44,287 bases of DNA from a virus, in IMG/VR virus record IMGVR_UViG_3300022927_000039, positions 1 through 44,287 of that record, one strand, 5' to 3'. This document shows positions 8,691-42,385 of this stretch, in pieces. Every line of letters starts with the position of its first letter. Positions within the stretch are counted from its first letter, which is position 1. The position numbers and the translations under genes are program-made. The notes under the pieces were generated by a model. That model had not been told where the DNA came from and searched no databases. It worked only from the letters and a program-made list of their open reading frames with translations.

Positions 8691-8720
8691 AAAATCCTCA
8701 CTATGTGGGGATTTTTTTTG
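8691..8720 (+). terminator. Rho-independent terminator
   Basis: The AAATCCTCAC / GTGGGGATTT stem with a TAT loop (one G-T pair) is followed by a run of T. It closes the 86-aa gene unit. Confidence 0.85.
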
Positions 8721-8730
8721 ACTAAAAGTT

Positions 8731-8738
8731 GATAAATA
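8731..8738 (+). promoter_or_regulatory. Late promoter, GATAAATA
   Basis: GATAAATA just downstream of a terminator and 43 nt before the ATG at 8782, so the next gene depends on this promoter. Confidence 0.75.
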
Positions 8739-8781
8739 AAAGTAAGAGAGCCAAACGGCTCAAAATACATAGGAGAATATA

Positions 8782-9027: not shown

Positions 9028-9055
9028 TCAAACGTAACAACAAACGATAATATTT

Positions 9056-9084
9056 AATCCCCACTTTATGTGGGGATTTTTTTG
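9056..9084 (+). terminator. Rho-independent terminator
   Basis: A perfect 9-bp stem AATCCCCAC / GTGGGGATT with a TTTAT loop and a T-run. Its stem sequence is nearly the same as the terminator at 8691. Confidence 0.9.
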
Positions 9085-9104
9085 ACTTCAGAAAATTAAA
9101 AGTC

Positions 9105-9112
9105 GATAAATA
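9105..9112 (+). promoter_or_regulatory. Late promoter, GATAAATA
   Basis: GATAAATA 21 nt before the ATG at 9134, downstream of a terminator. It probably drives the operon from 9134 through the giant gene and onward. Confidence 0.75.
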
Positions 9113-9786: not shown

Positions 9787-10076
9787 GAATAGACGAATTT
9801 ACAGATGTAGAAATTACAGAAGGTAGAATGGTATGGCGCCGAATGGGAAATACTGTTAAACGTGCAGTTCGTTGTACATCTGGTAGACGTAAAGGAAGAG
9901 TTGTAGCAAATGCGGCCCAATGTAGTAAGCCAATAGATATGAAGAAAAGGCTTACATTAAAAAGAACAAAAGCAGGTATGGGTAGAAGATTAGCCTTTAA
10001 GGCAAGAAGAACTAAAAGAACTAATCCAGCATCTAAAAGATTAAAAACTTTAAATAAGCCAGTTAGAAGAAGATAA
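9783..10076 (+). CDS. Lys/Arg-rich putative internal protein, 97 aa
   Basis: The start at 9783 gives MRIDEFTDVEITEGRMV, a good match to the shared leader with I-T-E|G at residues 11-14; a longer reading from 9708 lies inside the previous gene and is rejected. After the leader the protein is extremely basic, with a short cysteine module VRCTSGRRKGRVV ... AAQCSKP and a long run of Lys/Arg. Probably binds DNA or RNA within the capsid after cleavage. The two Cys could hold a metal or a disulfide. TAATG overlap with the next gene. Confidence 0.72.
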   Translation: MRIDEFTDVEITEGRMVWRRMGNTVKRAVRCTSGRRKGRVVANAAQCSKPIDMKKRLTLKRTKAGMGRRLAFKARRTKRTNPASKRLKTLNKPVRRR

Positions 10077-13000
10077 TGAAATTTAAAGATGTAAGGACAA
10101 TAGAATCTTTATTAAAAGAATACGGTATGACTTCAGGACCCTCTACATCTGTTGGAAATCAAAAGTCCGGAAGTATTGTAAACAAGCCTAGTTCTTCATC
10201 TTTGAAAAAACCAAGTACTTCTATAGTAAGAAAACCATCATCTAATAAAACAATACAACCTAAAGATTTATCTATGACTACATCTAAAGCAGGTGACTTA
10301 AAAAAAGATTTTGTCTTTCCTGATGAAAAGGGTAATGAATTAAAGATTGTTTCACCTGCAGGTAAAAGAACGTCACTACCTAACGATAAAGAAGATGTAG
10401 TTATCGCATTAGATAAAAATAATGAGCCTGTGGTTTTTGATAAAGATGCAGATGTATCTTACCCAGAAGTACAAGAAGGCAAATTAAAAAAATTAGCCAA
10501 AAAGAAAGGTAAAAAATTCCAAATTAGAAAACTTAAAGGAAAAATTAAAAAGTTATCCAAGAAAAGATTAAAAGAAGCAGATCCAAAACTTTTTGAAATA
10601 AATTTTAATAAAAAAGAAATTGCATCAGAAGCCTTAGATATGCCAGTAAAGTGTGGCTTTGAAGCAGAAACATTTTTTTATAGTGTAGATGGTTCAGGTT
10701 CTTCTGATGTAGATGATATGAGCATCAGTGATATCGAATACGAATATGGTGATTTACCAGATCAAGCATACGAAGATTATCAAGATTGGTTATATGATAA
10801 AGGACAATCAGAATATTTGGACGACTTAGTGAGTGATAAAGTCCAAGAAGTCAAAGAAGATGAAGAATGGTTGAACGACTTTATAGACAGCAGTAGTGGC
10901 CCAAGTTCAGAAGCAATCGAAATATACAAAAAAGATTTTGAAGAAGCAGACCCACAAGAATACGAAAACCGTGAGGAAGATGGTTGGGAATACATGAACT
11001 GGGTTAGAGAATATGTAGAAGAAGAATACGAAGACGAATATTTAGAATGGCTTGACCTTGCAGTCAGAGAAGAATATGATTTAAATGATGAGGCCAGAGA
11101 AGCCGCTGAAAGCGACTACAGTATGGAAGACTGGATATATGACACATACAGTTATATGAGCAGTTTCCTTGATGAGTATGGATACGACTATAGCAGAGGC
11201 GGAAGTGGTGTGTCAGATGTTGCTGATGAATTGTATAATGGTTGGATAAAACAACATAGTAGTTTTGATGAGTACCCAGAATCAGGAGATTACGGAGACA
11301 CTTATACAACAACTTCATGGGCAGTAGAAACTGACAGCAGTATAGATCCCGATGAAGGTGCGGCCGCAGAATTAATATCACCAGTATATAGTTCTCCTAG
11401 AAAAATGCTGGAAGAAATGAGAAGTCTTTTTAACTGGAGCGAAGATAACTTCGGCACTAATAATACCACAGGTTTACATGTAACAATGAGTTGGAACGGA
11501 TCTAGAGATGGAGATGCAGAATTAGGAGGACTAGAACCAAACAAATTAAAAATGGCATTGTTATTAGGTGACGAATACTTATTAGCACAATGGGGAAGAC
11601 GTAGAAACAGTTATACAAAAAGTCAATATCAAAATTTATTAAAACATGCAGAAGATATGAAACGTGGAAATAAAGACAGTTTCTTAACGTTACAAAAAGA
11701 ATTAGAAAAAGGCATTAGCAGAGAAAAGTTTTCAAGTATTCATTTTAAAAACCAAAAAGATAATGATAGCGAAAATGAATTAATAGAATTTAGAATAATG
11801 GGTGGTGCTGACTACAACACAATGTATGAAAAAGTTGTTAAATCAGTTGTAAGATATGCAACCATTATGAACGCAGGTTATGATGAAGATGCGTTTAGAA
11901 CAGATTATATAAATGCTTTGTTTAGATTAATCCGTAAGAGCCAAGAGATAGACCCTGAAAAGACAAAAGAACTAGAGGTTCATAATCATCCTGTGATAGA
12001 TTCTGCAAAAGAAATAGTTGGTAAAAAAGATTATTTTGATGTTATAAGATTTTTAAATAATTCTGTTAATTATTTTAATGAATATGAAGAATTAAGTGAT
12101 CCAGATGCTGATAAAAAATGGAAACAGAGTGTCAAAGATTATGAAAAAGGCACAGGCGACAAGATGGATATTGTTGAAGTTGAAGAGGGAGAGCCAATCA
12201 GAGGCTATATACAACCAGACGCAATAGCACCCAGCAAAAGAGCACCAGCGGCATTAAAAAGATCTCAGGAAATGTTTGGTAGGGCAGTAACACTTCTTGC
12301 AAGAGATATTGCTGACAATAAAGCGAGAGGAATGCCTAATGCAAAAAGCATAAGAATATTCAGAGAATATGCTAACAAAATAAAATTAAACAGTAAAACT
12401 TTAGAAAAAATTGCCATCCAAAGTATGGATGACTTAAACTTTAATGGTACTGACAAAGAGAACATAGTAAGATTAGAAAAAGGTGTACAAAGTTTATTTA
12501 AACAAGACATTATAAAAAAACCAACCTTCCTAACGCCACAAGAAGTAGATGCCATACTTAAAAAGTCCTGGCAGTTTGCAATGTCTGATGATAAAAAAGA
12601 TAATATTAAATTAAATAAATTTATAGAATTATTAGTAAAAGTATCTCCCTACAAAGATACAGATCAAGTACAAGATGATTTAAGACAGGTATTTAAAACA
12701 AGGCAAGAAAACGAATTTGCTAGATATATGAAAAGTGGGTCTTACGGAAGTAGTGGTTTATTAAAGGCAGGAAAAATAACAACTCCTGGTGCTGTTAAAG
12801 AATTACTATCCTTCCTAGAACCATATAGTGGATATGAACATCCTACAAGTCCAGATCATCATATCAATATAAGAAGTGATGACAACTATGAAAATGTCGC
12901 ACAGATGAGAATGATACAGCGAATGAGAGATCGTATGGATCATTTGCAAGATTTACAAACTGAGGACAAAGAAAAATATCAAAGCATAGTAAAGCAATTA

Positions 13001-16000
13001 CAATCAATTGGACAAGACTTTATAACTGCATTGAAGCCTGTAGACTTTCAAAATGAACTTGGATTAAAAGACAATGATGAAGATGGTAGAAATTTCTTAG
13101 GAATAAGTAATTTCAGCGACCACGATGACCGACTAAGTAAATGGAACGACATTTTAGATGATTTAACAAAAATGTCTGAACCTGATCAGGACACGTGGAA
13201 TTTTCCAAAATCATATGATGACTTAGTCTTTAGCCAGATTAATTTATCTGAATTGTACAAAGCAAAATCACGTGATCCTGGTAATTATGAATCATCAGAA
13301 ATAAAAGCATTAATTAAGGAAAGATTTGCGGCAATTAAAAAATTCTTAACAGGATTTGATAAAATTTTCCAAAAGGAAGGTTTCCTAGATTTAAAATCCG
13401 AAATTAAAAATAAAAATCAACTGGACAAACGCAACAAAGATTTTGAAAAGAATATCAGAGGCTCTGAAAAAACTAAATTTAATATACCATCACACAGTTG
13501 GGTATACATAGATAAAGAATTTTTTGACACTATCACAGATGAAGACTACAATGATAGAGAGGCATACTTGGAAAATCATTTAGAACATTTTAATGAAGAA
13601 CTAAACACAGGCAAGGTTTATGTAATTGCCGCAAGTCATTTTGGTGATGCCGAAGATGCCACAAACGGTTTAGAACTTATTGATACATTTGAAAAAAATA
13701 AAAACTATTATCATTCTTGGAGAAGAACTGGTTATAATAAAATACTCAGCAAATTTAAACAAACGTATGGAATTTCCTGGAGAGAATTAACTGGTGAAAG
13801 GATAGCAGATAAAACATTAATACAGGGTGACGGTGATGTATATCAAAAATTAAAAGAAATTGGCATTGCAATCACACACAAAGGCGACAGTAGAAAAGGC
13901 ATGGACGGTGTACAAGATTTAGTTCCAGATAATGAAACAGAAAATCCAAGAAGTGGCGAACCACTTAACAGAAGTAGCAGTATGAGTTGGGAAAACATCA
14001 ATGATGATGCTGAAGAAAAACGTTTTAACGCATTTGATTGGAGTGTGTACCCGGAACAAATGAAAGGGTTAGTTGCCAAAGAAATGAAAGACAAAATAAG
14101 TAGTTTTGGCAGTTTCCAAGTAGCATTAGATAACATACTTAAAAGAGTATTAGACGGTGATACAGGTATTGAAATAGGCCCTAACAAAAATAGCATAATA
14201 AAAGCGGCTGATGTAGAAGGCTACACAAAAGAGCATTCAGCAAAAATAGGTGCTGAAACTGATTGGATAAATCTAGCAGATCATTTAGGTATAGAACTTG
14301 GTGTAAATAACCAAGGTGCAGAACTGTTAAAGAAAACATATAATATGTATGATGAAAACACCCAAGGTAACTTTGCCGCAGATGGTGTAAGTATAGAAAG
14401 GTGGTTAGATGCTGTACAAAAATCCAAAGAATATATACAAAAAAATTATACTGTAAGTGGTGGAAATTATTTTAGAGACAAAGATTACATTGGTGGCAGA
14501 TTAGGCGGACCTGAAGATGCAGAAAAAACAATATCGACACCACCAGAAAAAGAATTTAATTCAGATTACGATTTAGCAAGAAACCGTTGGCCTAAGTTTG
14601 ATGAAATGATGCGAAATGGTATGCAGAACTATTTGGCTAGAGGTTCTGTAAATGACCTAGTAGGATTTTTAAATAATGCAAGTAATGACAGACGTTTTCA
14701 AAATGCAGTATTAGATACACTTGCAGATACACCAGATAGTGGTATGGGTGCTTTTGATGACTTTCAATCTGTATTAGCATCAGCAAGGATGAATATGTCA
14801 AGACAAAATCAAGAAAGTGTGTTAGACAAGTTTGACAAACTACCTTTACAAGAACGGTTGCGTATTATAAACGAATCAGATGTATTAGAAAAGTGGAGCA
14901 AAAAATATAAGGACAGTATCAACTGTAGCAACCCTAAAGGTTTCAGTCAAAAGGCTCATTGTGATGGTAAGAAAAAACAAGAAGGTAGAATAGAAGATAC
15001 TTTTGCAACAGATAGAATTGATAAACACGATAAACCTCAAAAGAAAAAGAAAAAAGAAAAAATGGAAGAGGGTGCCTTACCAGATAACTCTGTCGTTAGA
15101 ATGTTAAACAAATTACTTGCAGAGCCTATGCCAGCAAGTGATATTAAAAAACAAATGGATGCCTATTTTGCTCTACCTGTACCTTCCATGTTAAAAGCAT
15201 TTAGAGACAGACGTTCAGAGGGCGGAGACGACGCATGTTTAAGGCCTATACTAAGAAGTTATATTAAGCAACAGTTAGATCCTTCATCACAAAAACAAGT
15301 AAATCTAAATGAAGGAATAATGATCTCTGAATATGAAGATCTAGAAGCAGAAAAAATTAAAATACAGGATATTATTAAACAATTAGATATTGAAGATGAA
15401 AAAGACAGAGGGATAATAGACCAAATTTGGAGAATACTAAATTCAGATCATATTCAAACAGTTATTGGTTCAGTAGTAGCAAGACCTATAGCAGACGAAA
15501 CAGCAATGGATAAACTTGAAGCAACTAAAATACTTACAAAGGTAATTTATCAAGTAGAAGGCAGTTATGATAAAATTAAATCTTTTTTAGATGATTTAGA
15601 AAAAACAGGTTCTGCTTATGATGTCGATGCTATCAAGAAACCTATTAATGCATTATCAAATGTGTTTAAGTCAGATGTAGGATTTACAGTATTTAAAACG
15701 TTACTACCATACGGAGTAGGATCTAATAGAAAAGGCCCAGGTGAATTTGCATTAGCAATGCTTAGTGATAGAGTTCAATTAAGTGACTCTACAGGAGATA
15801 TTAAAGTAGATGGTGACCTAGTAGAAGTCAAAGCAAGTAAGAGTGAGACAAGTTCAGGTGGCGGAAGATTAGGTATGCACGGATTAACTGGAGATGATGC
15901 TACAGCAAGACTATTGAAATATGAAAACGATATACCTTCCATAGCACAACATTTAAAAGATCCCAGAAACAAAACTCTAGGATTCGGAAAGTTTTTAGAA

Positions 16001-16372
16001 TATCTAAATACAGATTTACCTGTAGGAGACAAAAGAAGAGGGTTAATTGTTAAAGATTTATATACAGGCGTCTTTATACCAAAAGCAGTACAAAAGATTG
16101 CAAAAGCAGTTCAATCGTCAAATCAAAGTATAGAGATAGCAAAGCAATATGCTGGTGCAAATTATATAGATTATGTAAGTAAAGGTAAGTTTGATTCATT
16201 ATTAGCAATAGATTTGTATACAGGCAAAACAGCATATATGAAAAGTGAAGATGAGTTTATAGAATTTATAGAAGGTCCACACTCAGGTTCGTTGGGTGTA
16301 AGTGCTGTAAGTTCTAATTCTAATCCAGCAGAAGTATTTGTGCAGATGAAATTTAAAAAGGGTAAAGTATGA
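10076..16372 (+). CDS. Giant 2098-aa putative internal protein: amidoligase-like and PD-(D/E)XK-like regions
   Basis: The largest gene in the window. The leader MKFKDVRTIESLLKEYG ends in L-K-E. A Ser/Pro/Lys-rich linker (about 20-180) follows. From about 190, GFEAETFF, then GLHVTMSW near 465 and EFRIMGG near 571 fit the order of amidoligase (carboxylate-amine ligase) motifs, with a very acidic insert between. Near 1618, NPKGFSQKAHCDGKKK is a short basic Cys module followed by a Lys-rich stretch. Near 1887-1917, GPGEFAL, GDIKVDGD and VEVKAS resemble a PD-(D/E)XK nuclease site. The long helical middle is unassigned. TAATG coupling upstream, ATGA downstream. Enzyme calls are inference from motifs. 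Confidence 0.68.
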   Translation: MKFKDVRTIESLLKEYGMTSGPSTSVGNQKSGSIVNKPSSSSLKKPSTSIVRKPSSNKTIQPKDLSMTTSKAGDLKKDFVFPDEKGNELKIVSPAGKRTSLPNDKEDVVIALDKNNEPVVFDKDADVSYPEVQEGKLKKLAKKKGKKFQIRKLKGKIKKLSKKRLKEADPKLFEINFNKKEIASEALDMPVKCGFEAETFFYSVDGSGSSDVDDMSISDIEYEYGDLPDQAYEDYQDWLYDKGQSEYLDDLVSDKVQEVKEDEEWLNDFIDSSSGPSSEAIEIYKKDFEEADPQEYENREEDGWEYMNWVREYVEEEYEDEYLEWLDLAVREEYDLNDEAREAAESDYSMEDWIYDTYSYMSSFLDEYGYDYSRGGSGVSDVADELYNGWIKQHSSFDEYPESGDYGDTYTTTSWAVETDSSIDPDEGAAAELISPVYSSPRKMLEEMRSLFNWSEDNFGTNNTTGLHVTMSWNGSRDGDAELGGLEPNKLKMALLLGDEYLLAQWGRRRNSYTKSQYQNLLKHAEDMKRGNKDSFLTLQKELEKGISREKFSSIHFKNQKDNDSENELIEFRIMGGADYNTMYEKVVKSVVRYATIMNAGYDEDAFRTDYINALFRLIRKSQEIDPEKTKELEVHNHPVIDSAKEIVGKKDYFDVIRFLNNSVNYFNEYEELSDPDADKKWKQSVKDYEKGTGDKMDIVEVEEGEPIRGYIQPDAIAPSKRAPAALKRSQEMFGRAVTLLARDIADNKARGMPNAKSIRIFREYANKIKLNSKTLEKIAIQSMDDLNFNGTDKENIVRLEKGVQSLFKQDIIKKPTFLTPQEVDAILKKSWQFAMSDDKKDNIKLNKFIELLVKVSPYKDTDQVQDDLRQVFKTRQENEFARYMKSGSYGSSGLLKAGKITTPGAVKELLSFLEPYSGYEHPTSPDHHINIRSDDNYENVAQMRMIQRMRDRMDHLQDLQTEDKEKYQSIVKQLQSIGQDFITALKPVDFQNELGLKDNDEDGRNFLGISNFSDHDDRLSKWNDILDDLTKMSEPDQDTWNFPKSYDDLVFSQINLSELYKAKSRDPGNYESSEIKALIKERFAAIKKFLTGFDKIFQKEGFLDLKSEIKNKNQLDKRNKDFEKNIRGSEKTKFNIPSHSWVYIDKEFFDTITDEDYNDREAYLENHLEHFNEELNTGKVYVIAASHFGDAEDATNGLELIDTFEKNKNYYHSWRRTGYNKILSKFKQTYGISWRELTGERIADKTLIQGDGDVYQKLKEIGIAITHKGDSRKGMDGVQDLVPDNETENPRSGEPLNRSSSMSWENINDDAEEKRFNAFDWSVYPEQMKGLVAKEMKDKISSFGSFQVALDNILKRVLDGDTGIEIGPNKNSIIKAADVEGYTKEHSAKIGAETDWINLADHLGIELGVNNQGAELLKKTYNMYDENTQGNFAADGVSIERWLDAVQKSKEYIQKNYTVSGGNYFRDKDYIGGRLGGPEDAEKTISTPPEKEFNSDYDLARNRWPKFDEMMRNGMQNYLARGSVNDLVGFLNNASNDRRFQNAVLDTLADTPDSGMGAFDDFQSVLASARMNMSRQNQESVLDKFDKLPLQERLRIINESDVLEKWSKKYKDSINCSNPKGFSQKAHCDGKKKQEGRIEDTFATDRIDKHDKPQKKKKKEKMEEGALPDNSVVRMLNKLLAEPMPASDIKKQMDAYFALPVPSMLKAFRDRRSEGGDDACLRPILRSYIKQQLDPSSQKQVNLNEGIMISEYEDLEAEKIKIQDIIKQLDIEDEKDRGIIDQIWRILNSDHIQTVIGSVVARPIADETAMDKLEATKILTKVIYQVEGSYDKIKSFLDDLEKTGSAYDVDAIKKPINALSNVFKSDVGFTVFKTLLPYGVGSNRKGPGEFALAMLSDRVQLSDSTGDIKVDGDLVEVKASKSETSSGGGRLGMHGLTGDDATARLLKYENDIPSIAQHLKDPRNKTLGFGKFLEYLNTDLPVGDKRRGLIVKDLYTGVFIPKAVQKIAKAVQSSNQSIEIAKQYAGANYIDYVSKGKFDSLLAIDLYTGKTAYMKSEDEFIEFIEGPHSGSLGVSAVSSNSNPAEVFVQMKFKKGKV

Positions 16373-31134: not shown

Positions 31135-31142
31135 CATAAATA
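31135..31142 (+). promoter_or_regulatory. Late promoter variant, CATAAATA, leaderless spacing
   Basis: CATAAATA ends 5 nt before the PAAR gene ATG at 31148, the same spacing as at 18541 and 20509. Confidence 0.55.
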
Positions 31143-31147: not shown

Positions 31148-31441
31148 ATGCCAGGAATAGCAAGAGTAGGTTTAGATAATGCAGGGGGCGGTGTAATCGT
31201 CGGTCCTGGTGCACCTACCGTACTTGCTGACGGTTCTATAGTTAGTTGTGCTTCAGCGGCTATACCAGGAGATCAGGTTTTTACTCACGGCGAAGCACCT
31301 CACACCGTAGCAAGTATCGTTACTGGATCAACTTCAGTATTTGCTGAAGGCCGCCCTGTTGCTATGCATCAATTTAGTACTGTGACATGTGGTCATAATG
31401 TAGAAGGTACTGTACCAGCAACGGTTCAAGTAGGCATATAA
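31148..31441 (+). CDS. PAAR-repeat spike-tip protein, 97 aa
   Basis: Matches the PAAR family (T4 gp5.4 type): repeated gly-rich turns such as GPGAPTVLADG, IPGDQVFTHGEAPH, STSVFAEGRPVAMHQFS and TCGHNVEG. His and Cys residues (including HGEAPH, MHQF, TCGHN) could bind the tip metal ion. Family members cap the central spike of contractile tails and sharpen it for membrane piercing. It shares a TAATG with the radical SAM gene, so the two are translationally coupled. Confidence 0.87.
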   Translation: MPGIARVGLDNAGGGVIVGPGAPTVLADGSIVSCASAAIPGDQVFTHGEAPHTVASIVTGSTSVFAEGRPVAMHQFSTVTCGHNVEGTVPATVQVGI

Positions 31442-32472
31442 TGCCAAATCTCATTTCAGTTCGTGGTCCTCATGCTCGTGGAGTAATGGACTTTATCAGA
31501 ATACAATGGAACATGGGTAATTCATGTAATTATGAATGTGAATATTGTCCTCCTATATTACATGACGGTTCTAAGCCTTGGTTAGAAAAAGATACATACA
31601 TAAAAACAATAGAGCGTCTATGTGAATACTATAATAGAATAGGGAAAAGAACAGATTTTGAATTAATAGGTGGTGAAGTCACTGTGATACCAGGGTTCGA
31701 GGATATAATTAAAAAGATCAGCCAGTATAACTCAACCAGTGTTGTTTATACAAATGCCAGTAGAACGGTTAATTGGTGGAGTAAAGCAAAACATTATATG
31801 GATAGTGTTGTACTAACATTCCATCCTCAGACACAGGATAAACAACATTTTTTAGACGTAATAAATGAGATCAAAGAAGATGTTAAAATAGATATAAACA
31901 TTGCAGGTGTAGGCGAAAAGGTAGAAGAATTAGGAGATTTTGCTGAAGAATGCAGGGATTTATTTAAAGATTGTGAACATAATTACTATTATAACGTCAG
32001 TATATGCGTAAAGACTATGTATAAGAAGCTCTTAGGGCGTCACAGTAAGCAGGAAACATACTGGAACTACACAGACAAGGAGTTAGAAATACTACAAAAA
32101 CCCGGCATTGCACCTATGCCAATAGAGCCTGCAGAACCTGAAGAACAAGATGATGGTAATATCTCAGAGTCTCAAGAATTCATAAATACAGATATAATGA
32201 CAGAGTTTTTATATGACGATGGAACAAAAAAATTTGTACAACACCATCAAATAATAAATGAAGGTCTTAATAAATTTAAAGGACTAAAATGTCATTTAGG
32301 ATATGAAAGTTTAAATATAGACGCCAGTGGTGAAATATATAGTAGTTGGTGTGGAGCAGTAAATTTTGGTAATATTACAAGTACTGATTGGTATATACCA
32401 GATTCTATGACCATATGTCCTTTTGATTTTTGTAATAATATATCGGATATTTCTATTACTAAAACTGTTTAG
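31441..32472 (+). CDS. Radical SAM/SPASM-like enzyme, 343 aa
   Basis: Cys29, Cys33 and Cys36 (CNYECEYC) form the CX3CX2C site for the SAM-binding [4Fe-4S] cluster, and IGGEVTV is the GGE motif that holds SAM. The C-terminus has further cysteines (GLKCHLGYESLNID, SSWCG, TICPFDFC) as in SPASM/Twitch domains that hold auxiliary clusters in peptide- and protein-modifying enzymes. An acidic Pro/Glu linker (PMPIEPAEPEEQDD) interrupts the fold. The substrate is unknown; the PAAR protein is a candidate because the two genes overlap. Its last 14 nt overlap the convergent gene. Confidence 0.85.
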   Translation: MPNLISVRGPHARGVMDFIRIQWNMGNSCNYECEYCPPILHDGSKPWLEKDTYIKTIERLCEYYNRIGKRTDFELIGGEVTVIPGFEDIIKKISQYNSTSVVYTNASRTVNWWSKAKHYMDSVVLTFHPQTQDKQHFLDVINEIKEDVKIDINIAGVGEKVEELGDFAEECRDLFKDCEHNYYYNVSICVKTMYKKLLGRHSKQETYWNYTDKELEILQKPGIAPMPIEPAEPEEQDDGNISESQEFINTDIMTEFLYDDGTKKFVQHHQIINEGLNKFKGLKCHLGYESLNIDASGEIYSSWCGAVNFGNITSTDWYIPDSMTICPFDFCNNISDISITKTV

Positions 32473-33610
32473 AAATATGATATTTAGATAAATCTTCGTT
32501 TGCTAAAAACGATAACAAGTGCAATGTTTTACCTTCTTCTGTAAAGTCAAGATCAAGTTTCATACTCGATCTTCGATCTTTATCTTTATATACAATTTTT
32601 AATTTCTCATTTGCTTTGTTTTTGCTGTTAATGTGTATTAATTTTTTCATATCACTGGAAATTAAAGAATTTTCTATTTTTGATTGGCCATTTCTTTTTA
32701 AATTTTCACTCCAATCATCACAGAGAGAGTTACTAAAAGTTTCATAAATATCTCTGTTTTCAAATATATAACCTAAGTAATTTATATATGTATCTCCATC
32801 AGTTTTTAAAAATTTCTCAGCATTAACTTTTTCAAGAGTTGTATTAAAAATATTATTTTGTCCACGATCGTATATAAAAGTTCTTAACAATAAGTATCCG
32901 GGTGCTGTTTGTGATAGTCCTTTTGATTTATATTCTAAGTTCTCTAATGTGTTGATTGCTGATAATACTTCTGTATCTTTAATAAATTTTCCTATAAAAT
33001 CAAATTCTATATTACATTTATGTATATCATAAAGCCATCTACCTTTTTCGTTCATTATATTAGTAAAAGTATTTCCCAGTAAGTTTCCATGTGATACTTT
33101 TATATTGCATCGTTTTTCTAAAACATCTTGTAAGATTTCTTTTAAATCGTTAACATTATGGTCATACAATGAATATTCTATAAATAAATTTTCTGCTTTT
33201 ATGTTTTCAAAAATGTATTGTATATTATCTTTAGAAGAATTAAGGTACACTAGACTATTATTTTTATTGTTACCGCATAAAAATATATAAAATTTAACGT
33301 TTAATTCGGTTAGGCGATCTATATCATTTTTACTTTTAAAATTACCATAAGTAAATAACATTAAATTAATACCCTCTTCATAACAATATTCTGCAAAAGA
33401 TATAATTTTTGTATAAAATAAAGGGTCTCCAAAATAAGAATGACATATAATGTCTTTTGGGTTTTCTTTAGAAATAAAATTTTTGACTTCTTCTAAGTCA
33501 AGTTCTCCTGTAGGGAAATTTCTTTTTCCAAATTTATGATATAACCAATGGCCCTGAGGAGATGTCGAATTAAAAACATCAGATTCTGATGTTAAGTCTA
33601 TAAAAAGCAT
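32459..33610 (-). CDS. Radical-SAM-like protein lacking the cluster cysteines, 383 aa
   Basis: Residues about 50-115 (HSYFGDPLFY ... INLMLFTYGNF ... LTELNVKFYIFLCG) follow the GGEPL, TNG and strand layout of the radical SAM barrel, but the N-terminus has no CX3CX2C. It may therefore be a non-catalytic partner or use another chemistry. The C-terminal 150 residues are helical and charged. It follows the subtilase by 8 nt on the same strand and converges with the true radical SAM gene. The fold assignment is inference. Confidence 0.6.
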   Translation of the reverse strand: MLFIDLTSESDVFNSTSPQGHWLYHKFGKRNFPTGELDLEEVKNFISKENPKDIICHSYFGDPLFYTKIISFAEYCYEEGINLMLFTYGNFKSKNDIDRLTELNVKFYIFLCGNNKNNSLVYLNSSKDNIQYIFENIKAENLFIEYSLYDHNVNDLKEILQDVLEKRCNIKVSHGNLLGNTFTNIMNEKGRWLYDIHKCNIEFDFIGKFIKDTEVLSAINTLENLEYKSKGLSQTAPGYLLLRTFIYDRGQNNIFNTTLEKVNAEKFLKTDGDTYINYLGYIFENRDIYETFSNSLCDDWSENLKRNGQSKIENSLISSDMKKLIHINSKNKANEKLKIVYKDKDRRSSMKLDLDFTEEGKTLHLLSFLANEDLSKYHISKQF

Positions 33611-33618
33611 TTATAGAT

Positions 33619-35235
33619 TTATTTTGGTCCGTCAAACAATGGCATAAATGTTGGAGTAATAATTGGAGCCAACTGCCAATCTAATGTTTGTGCCTGATCA
33701 TATTCGTCATTATCAGTGTCGTAATAGAAAGCATTAGTACCTTCAACTAGTTCGTCTTCACTGGTGTTGTACACACTGACAGCAAACTCTTCAACTAATG
33801 TTATACCGTTTACTTTACCTCTTACACCAAACAAATAATGTGATGGTGCTTGATCGGCTGTTAATGTAGAAGTATCTGCAGTAAGTATTCCTGTATTTGT
33901 ATCAAATGACATCCATGGACTTAAAGGACTAAATGTTAATACGGATACATTAGATGCCCCACTATTAAGACCTAAATCCACAGTAACTGATTGTCCTCTT
34001 TGTACCTTTGCCACTGATCCAGATGGGTAATTAAACAAGTCTTGAGTAGCATTAACACCACCTGCATCAACCTGTAGAATTGTTTTATTTGTATTAGATG
34101 TACTAAATCCACCGTCAGTTGCCGCATTTGCTAAATTTAATTTTTGTATTCCTTTTAATGAACCTTCAGCAACTAGAATTTCTTTAATTCTATTTGAATC
34201 TTCTGTTGGGTGCTTTTCAATATATCCTAACACACCACCTGCAACTATACCTGCACTTACACTAGTACCTGTACCGTCCGTGTATGTTGTGCCTGTTTCA
34301 CCCATTTCCGCTCCACTTACATTTACACCAATAGTAAAGATGTCAATTGCCGCACCATAGTTGTTGATTGATGTTACAGGATCTGAGCCGTCCCATGGGG
34401 TATTTGTAAATGATGTAATATTATAAGAAGTATCATGCGAACCCACAGTAATTATCTCATTAACTCCTGCTGGTGAATAATTATTTACATCACTTCCTTG
34501 GTTACCTGCAGATGCAACTACAACAATATTTGAATTATTGATTTCTGCAATTTTGGAATCTATTATATCATTTTGTGTTGTTACCCATGGAGCACAAAGT
34601 ACTTTAACATCATTTGGATTATTAGCATTATGATGAACCAAACAGGCATCTAGAGCATTCATTACGTTACCTAAACTAATTGTTCCTGCTAACTGATCAA
34701 ATAATTTGACATTTTGAACTGTGGCGTCTTTTGCAAGACCAACATTTTGTCCATTGATTAAACTTCCCACGAATGTTCCATGTCCTGTATAATCATCATA
34801 GTCGCCATCTACTGTTGTAAATAGGTTATTAATAGTAGAACCACTGAATTCTGAATGGGTTGATTGTACTCCGGAATCTATAAGATAGCATGTTTTTCCT
34901 GAACCTGTATATTTTGGTTCAAATGCACTATACCCTGGGTCAACATCTTGGTTAACCATTGCATTTGCTTCTTCTAAATCAACGTGCCTGTTGTCTACAT
35001 ATAAAAAGTGATTAGTATTCATTGCTTGTAAACTTACGCCTGAATCACTATCACTTAGACTAGAATATTTTAATCCCACTATTGCTGAAACTTGTTCTGC
35101 TGTTGCTTCTACTTCATATGTTAGATTTAATGCAAATGTTTTTTCTATTCCTGCACCCGCTGTACTAAGAGCATTTTCTGCCTCGGTAGCATTACTATGA
35201 GTGTCTGAATCCATTACTACTATATATTTTGCCAT
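33619..35235 (-). CDS. Subtilisin-like serine protease (S8) with propeptide and Ig-like C-terminus, 538 aa
   Basis: The catalytic triad is complete: Asp120 (YLIDSG), His152 (GHGTFVG), Ser325 (GTSVSAG), with oxyanion Asn245 (SAGNQG). Residues 1-60 look like an I9-type inhibitory propeptide (YIVVMDSD ... VSAIVGL), so self-processing is expected. Residues about 400-505 form an Ig/cadherin-like domain (SPLSPWMSFDTNTGILTAD in part). No signal peptide, so it acts in the host cytoplasm or the virion. A GGAG binding site and a minus-strand GATAAATA promoter precede it, indicating late expression. Confidence 0.9.
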   Translation of the reverse strand: MAKYIVVMDSDTHSNATEAENALSTAGAGIEKTFALNLTYEVEATAEQVSAIVGLKYSSLSDSDSGVSLQAMNTNHFLYVDNRHVDLEEANAMVNQDVDPGYSAFEPKYTGSGKTCYLIDSGVQSTHSEFSGSTINNLFTTVDGDYDDYTGHGTFVGSLINGQNVGLAKDATVQNVKLFDQLAGTISLGNVMNALDACLVHHNANNPNDVKVLCAPWVTTQNDIIDSKIAEINNSNIVVVASAGNQGSDVNNYSPAGVNEIITVGSHDTSYNITSFTNTPWDGSDPVTSINNYGAAIDIFTIGVNVSGAEMGETGTTYTDGTGTSVSAGIVAGGVLGYIEKHPTEDSNRIKEILVAEGSLKGIQKLNLANAATDGGFSTSNTNKTILQVDAGGVNATQDLFNYPSGSVAKVQRGQSVTVDLGLNSGASNVSVLTFSPLSPWMSFDTNTGILTADTSTLTADQAPSHYLFGVRGKVNGITLVEEFAVSVYNTSEDELVEGTNAFYYDTDNDEYDQAQTLDWQLAPIITPTFMPLFDGPK

Positions 35236-35277
35236 TTTGACTCCGTTTCGATAACTAAATGTTATAATTACTTATTA

Positions 35278-35285
35278 TATTTATC
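35278..35285 (-). promoter_or_regulatory. Late promoter on the minus strand, GATAAATA
   Basis: Reads GATAAATA on the minus strand, 42 nt before the subtilase ATG. AATAAATA lies a few bases further upstream. It would control the subtilase and the radical-SAM-like gene. Confidence 0.65.
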
Positions 35286-35310
35286 ATATTTATTCAAATA
35301 ACAAATTGTA

Positions 35311-36360
35311 ATGACAGAAATAAGAATAGGAAATCCAAACTTTTTAAGTTTACATTACGAATACCCTGAACTTAAACCAGGACAGGAATTCATTAAGGGA
35401 GATATTTCTTCTGATATACAAGAGTTTTCCAAAGAAAAAACAAAAGAACTTATAAGTGACCAACTTAGTGAATTTAAAGATGGTACTCTATGTTTAAGCG
35501 GAGGGTATGATAGTCAATTTTTAGCACTCAGTATGATAGAATCTGACTTTAAATTTAGTGTTGTTATATACGAATCACTTTGGGGAAATAATGTTGTAAA
35601 TGCAAATGATGTTATGTTTTCAGAAAAATTTTGTAAAAAATATAATTTACCATATGAAATCATATCCATAGACGCAAAGGATTTTTTTGAAAATACAAAA
35701 ATGCTACCTATGGTAAAAAAATACAGAAATTGGAGCCCACAGATATTATTTCATATATACTTTCTAAATACATTAGAAGCGGAGAAAATAATAATAGGTG
35801 GTGACCCTCCGTGGATCACATTTGGAAACAATAAAGCCCATAATGTTAATTTATTTGGTTATGTAGAAAAGTACTATGTACCCTATCAAATATATGCTGA
35901 TTTAAAAAACAAAAAACTTTTAAAAGGTATTTTCCATCAAAGTCCTGATCTATATCACTTGGGTATGGCAAATAATATAGACATACTTAAGAAGTATAAC
36001 GTTTATCAACCAACAAACGATAATTTTATATATGAAAAATATAGATATAAAGAAATTTATTATAATAATATTTTAGACATTCCCTTAGAACATAGATTAA
36101 TGACAGCCACAGGGTTTGAGAATCTTAAAAAACATTATGCTAGTATAACAGGCATATACGATAATTTCGATAAAGAATTTAGAGCTCCACTTGAAGAAAT
36201 TGCTGTTAGAAGTCTTATAACATCTGAAAATAAACCTCCAGCCATACAAAGAATAAAATTTAATAAAGATATAAATGAGCTATATTTTATGAAAAAGTTT
36301 GAGGAAACAATAAAGACCTCTGAGGCTCAACCATTAAAAGATTTCCTTTTTGATTTCTAA
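35311..36360 (+). CDS. Asparagine-synthetase-like PP-loop protein, 349 aa
   Basis: LSGGYDS at residues 62-68 is the PP-loop that binds ATP pyrophosphate in N-type ATP pyrophosphatases. IIGGDPPW near 161-168 matches the GGDE-type motif of asparagine synthetase and of the lasso-peptide cyclases derived from it. The glutaminase domain is absent, so it would need ammonia or another amine, or act as an amide-forming cyclase. It is divergent from the subtilase. Together these genes resemble a peptide-modification set. Substrate unknown. Confidence 0.7.
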   Translation: MTEIRIGNPNFLSLHYEYPELKPGQEFIKGDISSDIQEFSKEKTKELISDQLSEFKDGTLCLSGGYDSQFLALSMIESDFKFSVVIYESLWGNNVVNANDVMFSEKFCKKYNLPYEIISIDAKDFFENTKMLPMVKKYRNWSPQILFHIYFLNTLEAEKIIIGGDPPWITFGNNKAHNVNLFGYVEKYYVPYQIYADLKNKKLLKGIFHQSPDLYHLGMANNIDILKKYNVYQPTNDNFIYEKYRYKEIYYNNILDIPLEHRLMTATGFENLKKHYASITGIYDNFDKEFRAPLEEIAVRSLITSENKPPAIQRIKFNKDINELYFMKKFEETIKTSEAQPLKDFLFDF

Positions 36361-36465: not shown

Positions 36466-36594
36466 ATGATTAGAAGTTTATTCACAATATGGTTAAGTAT
36501 GTCTATCCAGACATCCGATAACCTATACGGTGCATTGCGAAGTGTTAGGGAAGTTGTTGACTGGAGCATTAGTAATGAGCGAAAAACAAATTAA
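36466..36594 (+). CDS. Micro-protein, 42 aa
   Basis: Begins MIRSLFTIWLSMSIQ, an amphipathic or membrane-prone helix, then a charged end (VREVVDWSISNERKTN). No clear ribosome binding site. Overlaps the next small frame by 20 nt. Coding status uncertain. Confidence 0.4.
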   Translation: MIRSLFTIWLSMSIQTSDNLYGALRSVREVVDWSISNERKTN

Positions 36595-36679
36595 TAAAAT
36601 AAAAGATCGTTTAGAAGTCTTTACTTTAGTCAGTATATTCTTGGTTTCATTACTAGCAGTATCGCCTAGTATACATTAA
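36575..36679 (+). CDS. Micro membrane protein, 34 aa
   Basis: A charged start (SEKQINKIKDRLE) runs into one hydrophobic helix (VFTLVSIFLVSLLAV). A GGAG lies about 8 nt before the ATG. It fits the row of tiny membrane proteins that follows. Confidence 0.45.
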   Translation: MSEKQINKIKDRLEVFTLVSIFLVSLLAVSPSIH

Positions 36680-36692
36680 CACAGGAGAGAAA

Positions 36693-36941
36693 ATGAAAAA
36701 TTTATTTGTTATAGCAATGTTAGGATTATTTGTATTAGACGTAAATGCAGATTGGAGAATGGACAGATTTGATCTAAACGATGATGGATTTGTTGTTAAA
36801 AAAGAATTAAAACAAGCAGGTTGTGAAGTCAAAGTAGGACTTTTTAATGCCGCTGATAAAAATGATGATGGTAAACTTTCTAAAAAAGAACTTAGAGTTG
36901 CTTCTGAGTATATTGTAAAAAGAAGGTGTCCTAGGAGTTAA
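36693..36941 (+). CDS. Secreted EF-hand protein, 82 aa
   Basis: The signal peptide MKNLFVIAMLGLFVLDVNA should direct export to the periplasm. The mature part has two EF-hand loops, DLNDDGFVVKKE and DKNDDGKLSKKE, each with Asp/Asn at loop positions 1, 3 and 5, and two Cys (AGCEV, RRCP) that may pair. CAGGAGAG precedes the ATG. Calcium binding in the host envelope is likely; its use to the phage is unknown. Adjacent to a run of small membrane proteins. Confidence 0.82.
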   Translation: MKNLFVIAMLGLFVLDVNADWRMDRFDLNDDGFVVKKELKQAGCEVKVGLFNAADKNDDGKLSKKELRVASEYIVKRRCPRS

Positions 36942-36942
36942 A

Positions 36943-37167
36943 ATGGCCTGGATGGAAAAAGCAACATTAGATTTATCAAATGCACAATACGAACCAAGGG
37001 TAAGTGAAATAGTAAGAGATTTCGTTATGGAAAATACTTGGAATACACCGTTTATTATAAAAACAGGTAGAGATATAGGCGTAAGAGCAAAAGTAACAAT
37101 GATATTAGATGAGATAACATATCACACAAAGTGGGAAGATGACGAGATAGAGGTTCTTAAAGTTTAA
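36943..37167 (+). CDS. Hypothetical protein, 74 aa
   Basis: A TAGGAG site overlaps the end of the EF-hand gene. A small soluble protein with RDIGVRAKVTMILDEITYH in the centre and an acidic end (KWEDDEIEVLKV). One base overlaps the next start. No family recognised. Confidence 0.6.
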   Translation: MAWMEKATLDLSNAQYEPRVSEIVRDFVMENTWNTPFIIKTGRDIGVRAKVTMILDEITYHTKWEDDEIEVLKV

Positions 37168-37295
37168 TGACACAGATAGTATACAAAATTATAGACAAAT
37201 CAGGAATTACAAAGAAGTTAGAAACTAAAATAGAATTTTTTACATACGGATTATTATGGTATGTATTTTTTATAAGTTTTATAGAATTAGTTTAG
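37167..37295 (+). CDS. Micro membrane protein, 42 aa
   Basis: TAATG overlap with the gene before. A basic N-terminal half (KIIDKSGITKKLETK) is followed by one aromatic-rich helix (FFTYGLLWYVFFISFIEL). Probably sits in the host inner membrane. Confidence 0.55.
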   Translation: MTQIVYKIIDKSGITKKLETKIEFFTYGLLWYVFFISFIELV

Positions 37296-37303
37296 GAGTA
37301 ATA

Positions 37304-37399
37304 ATGAATACTTTTTTAAATTTTTTTAAAAGAGGTTGGGTAAAAACTTTTTTTAAATATTGGGTACAACCTTGGCACCCAAAAGGATGTATAAGATAA
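37304..37399 (+). CDS. Micro-protein, 31 aa, aromatic and basic
   Basis: TTTAGGAGTAATA before the ATG is a good ribosome binding site, which argues it is real. Rich in Phe, Trp and Lys (FKRGWVKTFFKYWVQ, ending KGCIR), so likely a membrane-surface helix. It could also be a short peptide precursor, given the modification-type enzymes nearby; that is speculation. One base overlaps the next start. Confidence 0.5.
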   Translation: MNTFLNFFKRGWVKTFFKYWVQPWHPKGCIR

Positions 37400-37524
37400 T
37401 GGAAATAATATTTATATCAACACTTGGATTACTTGTATCAGCAATTTTTTTAGAAAAAGCACCTATGCATGATATTGTTACAGCACTCCAATACGAAAAG
37501 TTGAGAAACAAAAGTGGAAACTAA
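37399..37524 (+). CDS. Micro membrane protein, 41 aa
   Basis: Begins at the last base of the previous stop. An N-terminal hydrophobic helix (EIIFISTLGLLVSAIFL) is followed by a short charged tail (ALQYEKLRNKSGN). Overlaps the next GTG-started gene by 11 nt. Confidence 0.5.
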   Translation: MEIIFISTLGLLVSAIFLEKAPMHDIVTALQYEKLRNKSGN

Positions 37525-37699
37525 AAACTACACAGAAGCAACTCCGCAAGAAGTTCATGAATGGCAAAACGGCGGTGATTTTTTTATGACAGGTGATTTT
37601 GATGTTATGAAAATGTTTGTTGTTATACCAGCAGTAATTCAGATTGTAGTATTTGGTATGATGTTAGTAGTATTTAAATTAAATACATTCTTGTTTTGA
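37514..37699 (+). CDS. Small membrane protein, 61 aa, GTG start
   Basis: Starts at GTG inside the end of the previous gene. A soluble N-terminus (TEATPQEVHEWQNGGDF) precedes one C-terminal transmembrane helix (MFVVIPAVIQIVVFGMMLVV). No strong binding site is visible. Function unknown. Confidence 0.5.
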   Translation: METKNYTEATPQEVHEWQNGGDFFMTGDFDVMKMFVVIPAVIQIVVFGMMLVVFKLNTFLF

Positions 37700-37854
37700 T
37701 CAAAGACGCAGTAAAGGCCGTTATTGGTGTAGGCAAAAATAACGGCACTTTTAAACCCACTCCATTGCGAATTATTCTATTCGCTTTTTTAGTAGCAGGT
37801 ATATTTTTAGGTTTTATATCATTATTGCTACTCTTGACAAGTATTATTTTATAA
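37696..37854 (+). CDS. Small membrane protein, 52 aa, TTG start
   Basis: A TTG start overlaps the previous stop by 4 nt (TTGA). A basic N-terminal half ([17 protein letters not shown]) and one strongly hydrophobic C-terminal helix ([19 protein letters not shown]). Its end overlaps the ferredoxin promoter. Confidence 0.5.
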
Positions 37855-37882: not shown

Positions 37883-38221
37883 ATGGCTTTTATAGTAGGT
37901 AGTCCATGTGTCGGATGTAAAGACACAAAATGCGTAGAGGTTTGCCCTGTAGACTGCTTCTATGAAGGACCTGATATGCTAGTAATTAATCCAGACGAAT
38001 GTATTGATTGTGCTTTGTGTGAACCAGAATGTCCAGTAGATGCAATTTGGAGTGACGATGAATTACCATCAGAACAAATTCCTTTTATAGAAATAAATGC
38101 TAAACTATCTGAGGTGTGGCCAAACATAGCAGAAACAAAAGATGCAATGGCACATGAAAGTCCATACTCCATAGAAGAAGCAATAGCAATAGGTGAGAAA
38201 CATGTCGAAGAAAACCAATAA
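37883..38221 (+). CDS. fdxA: FdxA-type 7Fe ferredoxin, 112 aa
   Basis: Cys9, Cys12, Cys17, Cys21 ([14 protein letters not shown]) and Cys40, Cys43, Cys46, Cys50 ([12 protein letters not shown]) form the two-cluster N-terminus of proteobacterial FdxA ferredoxins ([3Fe-4S] plus [4Fe-4S]). The segments [17 protein letters not shown] and SEVWPNI are near-diagnostic of this family, as is the length. It is a soluble electron carrier; the partner in infection is unknown. The consensus early promoter stands out among neighbouring small genes. The host chromosome would normally encode such a protein, so acquisition from a host is likely. Confidence 0.9.
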
Positions 38222-38567: not shown

Positions 38568-39374
38568 ATGTCAGTAAAAGATATGTCTTACCGTGAACGC
38601 GGATTATTGCTTAGTATGTTCGCACATCAATGCTATTGCGAACCAAAAGATCTATTAAAGAAGAGACCTGGAATAAAAAGTCTAGATCCTCTTAAAAAGT
38701 TTTTAAACAAACCACTTCCACCAACATATATAGATGTTGATGGAGCCCAAGCCTATGTAATGAGTGATAGCAAAGATGTCCTTATTGCATGTAGAGGTAC
38801 GGAACCCACACAGATAAATGATATTTTAGCAGATTTAAAAATGTTCCCTGTTAAACATCATATATCAGGAAGAGTACACAGGGGATTTTATGCAGAGTAT
38901 GACAAAGTTATTCCTGGTATCAAAGAAGCATTAACAAAACATAACAAAAAAGGTGATAAAACTGTATGGGTCACAGGACATAGTTTAGGTGGAGCAATGG
39001 CTGTACTTGTTGCGGCTGAGTTAAGACCAAATGGTGGCTTACATACATTTGGTCAACCAAGAGTTGGTAATGCAGAATTCCTTAAAGCATTGGACGGTAT
39101 CAAATATTACAGATATAGAAACAACAATGATATTGTTACAGCAGTACCACCATCATGGTTATTCTTTAAACATGGTGGAGTTTTAAGATATATTAACACA
39201 TATGGTAATATTAGAAAAGCAACTCCTTGGCAAAGATTTAAAGATAAATGTAGAGGTCATTGGACTGCACTTAAATCTTTTAATTTAATAGATGGTTTTG
39301 CTGATCATAGTATGGGATTATATCATGAATTCTTATACAACATGGACGACAACGGCGAGCAATTACCTAAATAA
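38568..39374 (+). CDS. Class 3 lipase-like alpha/beta hydrolase, 268 aa
   Basis: GHSLGGAMA at about residues 137-145 is the nucleophile elbow (Ser139). An Asp in NNNDIVTAVPP and a His in DHSMGLYHEF complete the triad in class 3 order, and HTFGQPRVGN is the conserved strand motif. ACRGTEP near residue 78 is typical of the oxyanion region. No signal peptide, so it acts in the cytoplasm or in the virion. TTAGGAG binding site and late promoter. It might attack host membrane lipids at lysis or entry. Confidence 0.87.
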   Translation: MSVKDMSYRERGLLLSMFAHQCYCEPKDLLKKRPGIKSLDPLKKFLNKPLPPTYIDVDGAQAYVMSDSKDVLIACRGTEPTQINDILADLKMFPVKHHISGRVHRGFYAEYDKVIPGIKEALTKHNKKGDKTVWVTGHSLGGAMAVLVAAELRPNGGLHTFGQPRVGNAEFLKALDGIKYYRYRNNNDIVTAVPPSWLFFKHGGVLRYINTYGNIRKATPWQRFKDKCRGHWTALKSFNLIDGFADHSMGLYHEFLYNMDDNGEQLPK

Positions 39375-40598: not shown

Positions 40599-41525
40599 AT
40601 GGCAAAAAAGAAAACATCAAAGAAAATTAATCTAGATACACCTAAAGACTCGCAACCTAAAAACAATGAGCAAGATGTGATGTATAGGCTCCTTGATCAA
40701 AAGATCGAGATACCACTAGGTCTACTTAGACAAAAACATATTTTTATTGCCACACCATGTTATGGTGGGCAAATTGGTGAGCCATATTTTAGAAGTATGA
40801 TGAGGTTAGCAATATTGTGTAACAAATATGATATACAATATACTATCAGTACATTAGCAAATGAAAGTTTGGTTACTAGAGGACGAAACACACTGGTTAG
40901 TTTCTTCATGGAAAACAAACAAGCAACTCATCTGTTCTTTATAGATGCTGATATTGAATTTAATCCAGAAGATATTTTGAGAATGGTCGCATATGATAAA
41001 CCAGTTATTGTTGGAGCATATCCTAAGAAAGCAATAAATTGGCAAAGCATAATGAGTGCGGCACGAAACGATCCAGATGAGACACCTGATACTATTGAAG
41101 GACACAGTTCTAACTATGTAGTAAACTTTGACTTTTTACAGGACGATAAAGGCAATAGAACATCACAGGTTTTTATACAGGATAATTTAGTAAAACTTAA
41201 AGATGCTGGTACAGGATTTATGTGTATTGAAAAAAGTGTTATTCAAGAATTATTTGATAAACACCCTGAAATGAAATATGTTAATGATATTAATGTAGAC
41301 AAAAAATTCGAACCGTTTATGTATGCATTATTTGATACAATGATTGATCCTGAAAGTAGACGTTACCTGTCAGAAGATTATACATTCTGTAGGTTATGGC
41401 AAAATAATGGTGGTGATGTTTGGTTAGATCCACGAACAGCATTGAACCATGTGGGGCATTATACATTTAGAGGCAATATTAGAAAACTATTTACTGGTGA
41501 AAATCAAAAAACTAAAAAGGACTAA
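40599..41525 (+). CDS. GT-A type glycosyltransferase-like protein, 308 aa
   Basis: After a Lys-rich N-terminus, IFIATPCYGGQIGEPY starts a Rossmann-like nucleotide-sugar fold. NESLVTRGRNTLV and FFIDADIEFNPEDI carry the substrate-binding and DxD-type (DAD) metal motif. The C-terminus (DYTFCRLWQNNGGDVWLDP in part) is also typical of phage glycosyltransferases. Likely adds sugar to phage DNA, a virion protein or a host surface glycan. It precedes a second glycosyltransferase by 2 nt. Confidence 0.8.
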   Translation: MAKKKTSKKINLDTPKDSQPKNNEQDVMYRLLDQKIEIPLGLLRQKHIFIATPCYGGQIGEPYFRSMMRLAILCNKYDIQYTISTLANESLVTRGRNTLVSFFMENKQATHLFFIDADIEFNPEDILRMVAYDKPVIVGAYPKKAINWQSIMSAARNDPDETPDTIEGHSSNYVVNFDFLQDDKGNRTSQVFIQDNLVKLKDAGTGFMCIEKSVIQELFDKHPEMKYVNDINVDKKFEPFMYALFDTMIDPESRRYLSEDYTFCRLWQNNGGDVWLDPRTALNHVGHYTFRGNIRKLFTGENQKTKKD

Positions 41526-41527
41526 TT

Positions 41528-42385
41528 ATGAGCAATGAAAAAATATCTGTACTTTTACCCACAAGAGGTAGAACTGATGTACTTAAAAGTAGTTTAGAAT
41601 CTCTGATTACAAAAGCAAGTGATCCTTCTAGAATAGAAATTCTATTTGGTATAGATGAAGATGATGTTCAAGCAACAGAGTATATAAAGAACGATTTAAA
41701 ATCTTTATTTACTGACAACGGTATAGAAGCAAGAGCTAATGTATTCAAACCATTAGGTTACGAAAACTTACATGTGTACGTTAATACACTGGCCGCAAAT
41801 GCCACAGGTGAGTGGTTGTTCTTTTGGAACGATGATTGCTTAATGGTTTCTGAAGGATGGGATGATGTTATTCTTAGTTATTCCGGACAATTTAAATTAC
41901 TAGGACCAAAGGATAATCACGATGGGCATCCTTACGCAATATTACCTGTTGTTCCTAGAGATTGGTTTATACTTATGGGACACCTAAGTCAAAATGCACA
42001 GAATGATGCATGGCTAAGTCATATTGCATACATGTTAGATATATTTGAAAGAGTAGACTTTGAGTTTATTCATGATCGTGCAGACATTACCGGCAATAAT
42101 GATGACGAGACATTCAAAAACAGGAAGTATATGGAAGGTAATCCCGAAGACCCTAAAGACTTTGGACATCCAGACATGCAACAATCTCGTGTAAACTCAG
42201 CACATAAAATAGCATGGTTCTTAGATAAAATAGGACAAAAATCAGAATGGTGGGAAAAAGTTAAAGCAGGTGAGCAAGATCCATTTGAAAAAATGGTATG
42301 GCAAGAAGGTGTTAAAGGTGCTGGCCAATTACAGGCAGTAGACCAAAAAGAAAAATTACCTGACGATACCAAAATAGAACTATAA
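41528..42385 (+). CDS. Glycosyltransferase family 2-like protein, 285 aa
   Basis: ISVLLPTRGRTDVLKSSLES is the family 2 N-terminus, followed by ILFGIDEDD and FFWNDDCLM, the last in the place of the DxD motif. The C-terminal half (WFLDKIGQKSEWWEK in part) is unassigned. Probably works with the preceding enzyme, from which it is separated by 2 nt. Acceptor unknown. Confidence 0.8.
   Translation: MSNEKISVLLPTRGRTDVLKSSLESLITKASDPSRIEILFGIDEDDVQATEYIKNDLKSLFTDNGIEARANVFKPLGYENLHVYVNTLAANATGEWLFFWNDDCLMVSEGWDDVILSYSGQFKLLGPKDNHDGHPYAILPVVPRDWFILMGHLSQNAQNDAWLSHIAYMLDIFERVDFEFIHDRADITGNNDDETFKNRKYMEGNPEDPKDFGHPDMQQSRVNSAHKIAWFLDKIGQKSEWWEKVKAGEQDPFEKMVWQEGVKGAGQLQAVDQKEKLPDDTKIEL

Follow-up and report, generated by a model that had tools for sequence, protein, structure and literature searches.

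A conserved island of spike-tip, subtilase and AsnB-like synthetase genes in uncultured T4-like phages: a possible protein maturation locus

Introduction

Why would a T4-like phage carry a subtilase, an AsnB-like synthetase and two proteins of radical SAM type beside the gene for its spike tip? The question is raised by positions 31,148 to 36,360 of the IMG/VR virus record IMGVR_UViG_3300022927_000039, the whole 44,287 bp of which were analysed and are called the window here. A sequence-only reading of this DNA had named five genes in the region (a PAAR protein, a radical SAM enzyme, a cysteine-less radical-SAM-like protein, a subtilase and a PP-loop protein) as a possible protein or peptide maturation island, and all five are found where it had placed them. 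Below, rSAM denotes the protein at 31441, partner that at 32459, S8 that at 33619 and PP that at 35311. We show that PAAR, partner, S8 and PP form a conserved core, and we consider it quite possible, if short of probable, that this core is a late tail-tip and protease module of T4-like phages in which PP and partner mature S8 or PAAR. The predicted features of the island, which is flanked by NrdB and LSM-like genes on one side and by a run of mini-genes on the other, are as follows.

31135..31142, plus strand: T4-type late promoter-like CATAAATA, 12 nt 5' of the PAAR start
31148..31441, plus strand: PAAR spike-tip protein of T4 gp5.4 type, 97 amino acids (PF05488, E 1.4e-6)
31441..32472, plus strand: rSAM, radical SAM enzyme with a C-terminal four-Cys (twitch/SPASM-like) region; accessory member
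32459..33610, minus strand: partner, radical-SAM-fold protein without cluster cysteines, with an N-terminal QGxWxxHRxGKR-type loop
33619..35235, minus strand: S8 subtilase with a propeptide-like N terminus, D120/H152/N245/S325, and a C-terminal domain with a YYD...YDxVVNY-type tail
35278..35285, minus strand: T4-type late promoter-like GATAAATA, about 50 nt 5' of the S8 start, serving the S8-partner unit
35311..36360, plus strand: PP, PP-loop enzyme of AsnB/beta-lactam-synthetase fold, synthetase domain alone

Results

Linkage of the core genes

Viral contigs were scanned with rSAM, PP and S8 as anchors, and the loci recovered were mapped by profile hidden Markov models. All loci counted come from uncultured phages. 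The order NrdB-LSM-PAAR-rSAM-partner(-)-S8(-)-PP is kept in 52 of 65 distinct loci. Twelve others lack rSAM, ten of them in the usual order and two with the PAAR-partner pair inverted, and the remaining one (L042) is rearranged to PAAR-S8like-PPlike-...-rSAM. The combination of PAAR, partner, S8 and PP is present in 64 of the 65. When loci were collected by PP alone (75 loci), S8 was found in all 75, partner in 73 and PAAR in 72; further on, a lipase gene was seen in 37 and a ferredoxin gene in 27. Anchoring on S8 gave 39 distinct loci, all with PP, 37 with partner, 38 with PAAR within 5 kb and 26 with an adjoining rSAM. The co-occurrence proposed by the sequence-only reading is thus seen as synteny in dozens of divergent phages, and independent, unlinked occurrence of the genes was not observed. 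The linkage of the core genes is real and goes beyond chance.

That reading had put rSAM at the centre of the island. Our data do not support this placement: the core is intact in the 12 distinct loci without rSAM, and a search of 12 records of such phages, which are incomplete, turned up no rSAM homologue elsewhere. Therefore, rSAM is accessory and the core consists of PAAR, partner, S8 and PP.

The island belongs to a family of uncultured T4-like viruses. A 250-kb relative (L061) has a match to T4 gp23 (2.9e-81), while gp5 was not identified in the window. Among named phages, neither rSAM nor PP nor partner, nor a distant relative of partner, had a match, and S8 matched only generic phage subtilases at 25-29% identity. 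A pattern scan of cellular genome contigs found no cellular homologue of rSAM or PP.

PAAR and S8 are preceded by late promoters

The motif NATAAATA has been reported as the late promoter of T4-like cyanophages (PMC2984593). We found ATAAATA 5' of PAAR in 80 of 86 distinct loci, exactly at -12 in 73 of these, and 5' of S8 in 62 of 68, against a chance expectation of 0.046 per 150-bp upstream region. The motif is rare 5' of rSAM (1/77) and PP (7/66). Given the late promoters before them, PAAR and S8 look like late genes. In the usual order, rSAM lies on the same strand behind PAAR and partner on the same strand behind S8. The PAAR stop and rSAM start codons overlap (TAATG, 31439-31443), which bears out the proposed coupling of these two genes.

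The arrangement of PAAR and S8 survives changes of gene order. In L158-L160, an inverted PAAR lies directly downstream of S8 on the same strand, behind the S8 late promoter, so that the two form one operon; in L042, the S8-like gene comes immediately after PAAR. PAAR and S8 have therefore stayed together through two different rearrangements, and with the late promoters this strengthens the connection of PAAR to the island that had been suggested from the window alone. PAAR itself has invariant H47, H52 and C81 (83 homologues). It is a small PAAR protein, and the single PAAR of the 250-kb, gp23-bearing relative is the one encoded in this island, as expected of the T4 gp5.4 type.

Predicted activities of S8, PP and partner

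S8 matches PF00082 (7e-19), and Asp120, His152, Asn245 and Ser325 are invariant in 69 of 69 homologues, predicting the Asp/His/Ser triad and oxyanion Asn of a subtilase. From residue 13 on, S8 aligns with the subtilisin-like proform 3afg, in support of the propeptide first ascribed to it, although Pfam propeptide models give no match. No signal peptide is evident in S8. A class 3 lipase gene at 38568-39374, with a late promoter in 26 of 27 loci, places a second late hydrolase close to the late S8.

For partner and PP, AlphaFold models were built from family alignments (mean pLDDT, a per-residue model confidence, 73.6 and 85.9, respectively). In PP, which is 349 amino acids long, SGGxDSQ is invariant (65/65) while overall identity among homologues drops to 25-30%, and the C terminus is mostly aromatic (FDF or FDW in 39/66). 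The model matches beta-lactam synthetase (7e-7) and AsnB (1ct9; VIA Z 14.3, 268 residues, root mean square deviation (rmsd) 3.6). The Pfam Asn_synthase model does not recognise PP, and its weak profile matches are to TilS and NAD synthetase. The PP-loop domain begins near residue 40, and the stretch upstream is too short for a glutaminase domain. By motif and modelled fold, PP would thus be an AsnB-type synthetase without the Ntn glutaminase domain, as had been read from the window.

The partner sequence matched no family. Its model, in contrast, resembles radical SAM enzymes, with SkfB nearest in Foldseek (1.4e-8), followed by SuiB (2.5e-8); against MoaA it gave VIA Z 16.0 over 224 residues (rmsd 3.7). 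A profile match to SuiB had E 0.006, and a profile comparison of the rSAM and partner families was not significant. CX3CX2C is absent from all 151 partner open reading frames (ORFs), including those of 22 loci without a detected rSAM; the idea that partner is an intact radical SAM enzyme in phages lacking rSAM was rejected on this ground. As modelled, partner has the fold of the superfamily and lacks its three cluster cysteines, in agreement with its first description as a barrel relative without its cluster. In the family alignment, a conserved QGxWxxHRxGKR-like loop follows the first strand, where the cluster loop would be, and N152, W192, D195, G280, D299 and W300 are invariant among 69 homologues. 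This loop seems to be a new site and not a product of decay.

The accessory radical SAM enzyme

In rSAM, the CX3CX2C cysteines C29, C33 and C36 are invariant among 25 relatives, a motif that assigns it to the radical SAM superfamily; its matches to PF04055 (5.8e-6) and to the NCBIfam STM4011 family (6.7e-16) both lie below the cut-offs of these models. Four further cysteines at the C-terminal end (C284, C304, C326 and C331) are invariant in the same relatives. The earlier label, SPASM-type, finds only partial support, as the spacing of these four residues is non-canonical and Pfam SPASM does not match. An auxiliary-cluster region of twitch/SPASM kind would be the safer term.

Several observations concern radical SAM genes and their surroundings. 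A dicluster ferredoxin (37883-38221; phrog_8732, 139 bits) is encoded near the island in only 27 of 75 loci and could supply electrons to rSAM. In L150 (4650-7197), the slot between PAAR and partner, occupied by rSAM in other loci, encodes two proteins that are hydrophobic at the N terminus and match cytochrome c weakly; one of them also has a weak copper monooxygenase match. The 250-kb T4-like record L061 has twelve radical SAM matches, comparable to the 12 radical SAM genes reported for a marine T4-like genome (PMC5332604).

Co-divergence and joint loss

Tree distances were compared for 34 rSAM-bearing loci, with partial values calculated by removing NrdB. The correlations were 0.80 for S8-PP, 0.72 for partner-S8 and 0.68 for partner-PP, and remained 0.77, 0.69 and 0.64, respectively, as partial values. 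For rSAM against partner, S8 and PP, the partial values were 0.36-0.48.

One lineage, L042 and L250, has lost the active sites of S8 and PP and, with them, partner. Its S8-like protein lacks the GHGT and Ser/GTS motifs, its PP-like protein lacks SGGxDS, and partner is gone, while the rSAM of L042 is intact. This joint loss suggests that the activities of S8, PP and partner go together and that rSAM is separate. Both remnants are open ORFs in L042 and L250; between the two contigs, one differs by 39 synonymous and 12 nonsynonymous nucleotide changes and the other by 36 and 7. They are under purifying selection, and S8 and PP may retain a role other than catalysis. In L042, genes of fatty acid desaturase type and an alpha/beta hydrolase gene lie between the degenerate S8/PP pair and rSAM (6089-9112).

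Other genes of the window

At 40599-42385, two adjoining proteins are encoded: one matches a glycosyltransferase (phrog_14945), and the other, of phrog_1574, does so weakly. A 2098-amino-acid protein at 10076-16372 has no Pfam or PHROG match at E 0.01.

Discussion

A possible tip and protease module

The observations above can be assembled into a tentative scheme. PAAR would be the spike tip (gp5.4 type). S8 would be made late as a cytoplasmic zymogen and work with the tip; in the simplest case it would be a protease associated with the tip and active in the host envelope. In T4, the tip protein reaches the periplasm (PMC7600766). PP would activate a carboxylate with ATP and form an amide on a late protein, S8 being the likeliest target and PAAR a less likely one. 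Partner, presumably without radical chemistry now, would bind or present the substrate for PP, and rSAM would add a further, optional modification. The enzymes may modify a virion protein, S8 and PAAR being the best linked candidates. The stronger form of this proposal, that a tip-associated S8 or PAAR is covalently modified by a stand-alone AsnB-type ligase and a radical-SAM-fold protein with a new conserved site, in chemistry like that of ribosomally synthesised and post-translationally modified peptides (RiPPs), we hold to be rather doubtful.

Several observations weigh against the module as proposed. The co-divergence of PAAR with partner, S8 and PP is low (partial 0.12-0.24), and with S8 and PP in particular it is weak (0.12-0.15). 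The upstream LSM-like gene also correlates with partner, S8 and PP (partial 0.40-0.50); adjacent genes of a phage may diverge in parallel when they are inherited or recombine together, which could contribute here, so the mirror-tree result does not prove an interaction. In most loci PP has no late promoter and may therefore be expressed at another time. Finally, the N- and C-terminal domains of S8 are not common to any other protein of the loci, which leaves promoter and linkage as the only pointers to a virion location.

Alternative explanations

If the enzymes acted on a small peptide instead of a large protein, as in a RiPP-like pathway, a precursor would be sought among the short genes. 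The mini-genes at 36466-37854 form a conserved series of 20-80 amino acids, several with hydrophobic segments and one encoding an EF-hand protein with a hydrophobic N terminus, and they include the one short gene considered as a precursor:

37304..37399, plus strand: 31-amino-acid peptide with a KYW(I/V)xPWxP core; rejected as obligate substrate

The enzyme types do resemble RiPP maturases (a partner fold nearest SkfB/SuiB, an AsnB-like enzyme as in lasso clusters, and a subtilase), and the KYWxPW peptide occurs in 37 of 69 rSAM loci compared with 1 of 21 without rSAM, that one being cut off before the rSAM position. The sequence-only reading had pointed to this peptide for its Cys and to short genes that might vary together with the enzymes. 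The gene exists, but its Cys is not conserved among KYWxPW peptides, and the peptide is missing from 17 of 35 rSAM-bearing tree rows, its distribution following one clade; we therefore rejected it as the rSAM substrate. No conserved precursor ORF was found across the core loci between 1.2 kb upstream of LSM/PAAR and 2.5 kb downstream of PP, where the largest short-ORF family covers 27 of 56 loci, consistent with the earlier remark that no precursor with a recognised leader is evident. Furthermore, in most core loci without rSAM, PAAR abuts partner and leaves no space for a precursor. That the peptide is clade-bound, often missing and without a conserved Cys argues for a protein rather than a small peptide as the product, and we regard the peptide pathway as improbable.

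S8 could also be a late intracellular or lysis-phase protease that digests host proteins, with PP and partner making or processing a small molecule, tRNA or amino acid derivative and being merely co-inherited. The late promoter of the adjacent lipase fits this, as does the lack of any virion-specific domain found in S8. tRNA and cofactor modifiers occur among PP-loop enzymes, and the weak TilS and NAD synthetase profile matches agree with such a role. The structure of PP, in contrast, is nearer to AsnB/beta-lactam synthetase (about 260 residues) than to LarE or TilS. Moreover, S8, PP and partner are kept together in at least 73 of 75 loci while lipase and ferredoxin come and go, and in one lineage the active sites of S8 and PP disappeared along with partner. 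We place this explanation on the unlikely side. The same lineage, where S8-like and PP-like proteins without catalytic residues are under purifying selection, favours another alternative: that S8 is a self-contained phage effector or a processing protease of tail or head assembly, and that partner and PP are non-catalytic adaptors or chaperones. However, the catalytic residues are invariant in every other homologue examined, for PP despite its low overall identity, and we give this account little credence.

Relation to known systems

Maturation of QHNDH offers a precedent: the radical SAM enzyme QhpD and the cytoplasmic subtilase QhpE mature the protein QhpC, which is encoded with them (PMC7876137). 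Here too, a radical SAM enzyme and a cytoplasmic-type subtilase are encoded together, and S8 matches the QhpE model NF049966 (8.7e-8). Its score of 31.8 is far below the cut-off of 165, however, and a mycosin model scores higher. No QhpC-like subunit, flavoprotein, transporter or other Qhp gene was recognised among the scanned neighbours of the island, where rSAM is optional and the core includes an AsnB-like enzyme and a Cys-less radical-SAM-fold protein. We therefore do not assign the island to this system. Lasso peptide clusters likewise have an AsnB-type synthetase adjoining a protease, and the sequence-only reading had likened PP to lasso cyclases. The AsnB-type fold upholds part of that likeness, but the protease of the island is S8 and not transglutaminase-like, PqqD and Asn_synthase Pfam matches are absent, and there is no conserved precursor ORF, so the island is not a lasso locus.

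As in the T4 gp5/gp5.4 spike, PAAR here is a small, single-domain protein; its gene follows a T4-type late promoter, and T4 gp23 occurs in this phage group. We know of no linked subtilase, AsnB-like or radical-SAM-fold genes in T4. Partner shares its predicted fold with the radical SAM RiPP maturases SuiB and SkfB but has the new conserved loop in place of CX3CX2C. PP shares the predicted fold and the ATP pyrophosphatase motif SGGxDS with AsnB, beta-lactam and carbapenam synthetases, but differs in lacking the glutaminase-type N-terminal domain, in its 8-12% identity and in its own C-terminal FDF/FDW. Anti-phage defence was considered and set aside, the only matches being generic viperin-like and subtilase ones. 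We found no description of a system with this combination among named phages or in the papers searched, which yielded only genome papers that do not list the set; PAAR and asparagine are unmentioned in the text of those genome papers that were text-searched.

Significance

We consider the island a variant of the cassettes known for protein or peptide maturation, and the chance that it is something more is real. For enzymology, the radical SAM fold with its conserved replacement loop offers a clean target, and natural controls are available in lineages that have or lack the active sites and in those that have or lack rSAM. If the proposed scheme is true, envelope penetration in these T4-like phages would have to be pictured differently, with a protease that works alongside the spike tip, and RiPP-type modification of a tail tip would, as far as we know, be a new layer of phage biology.

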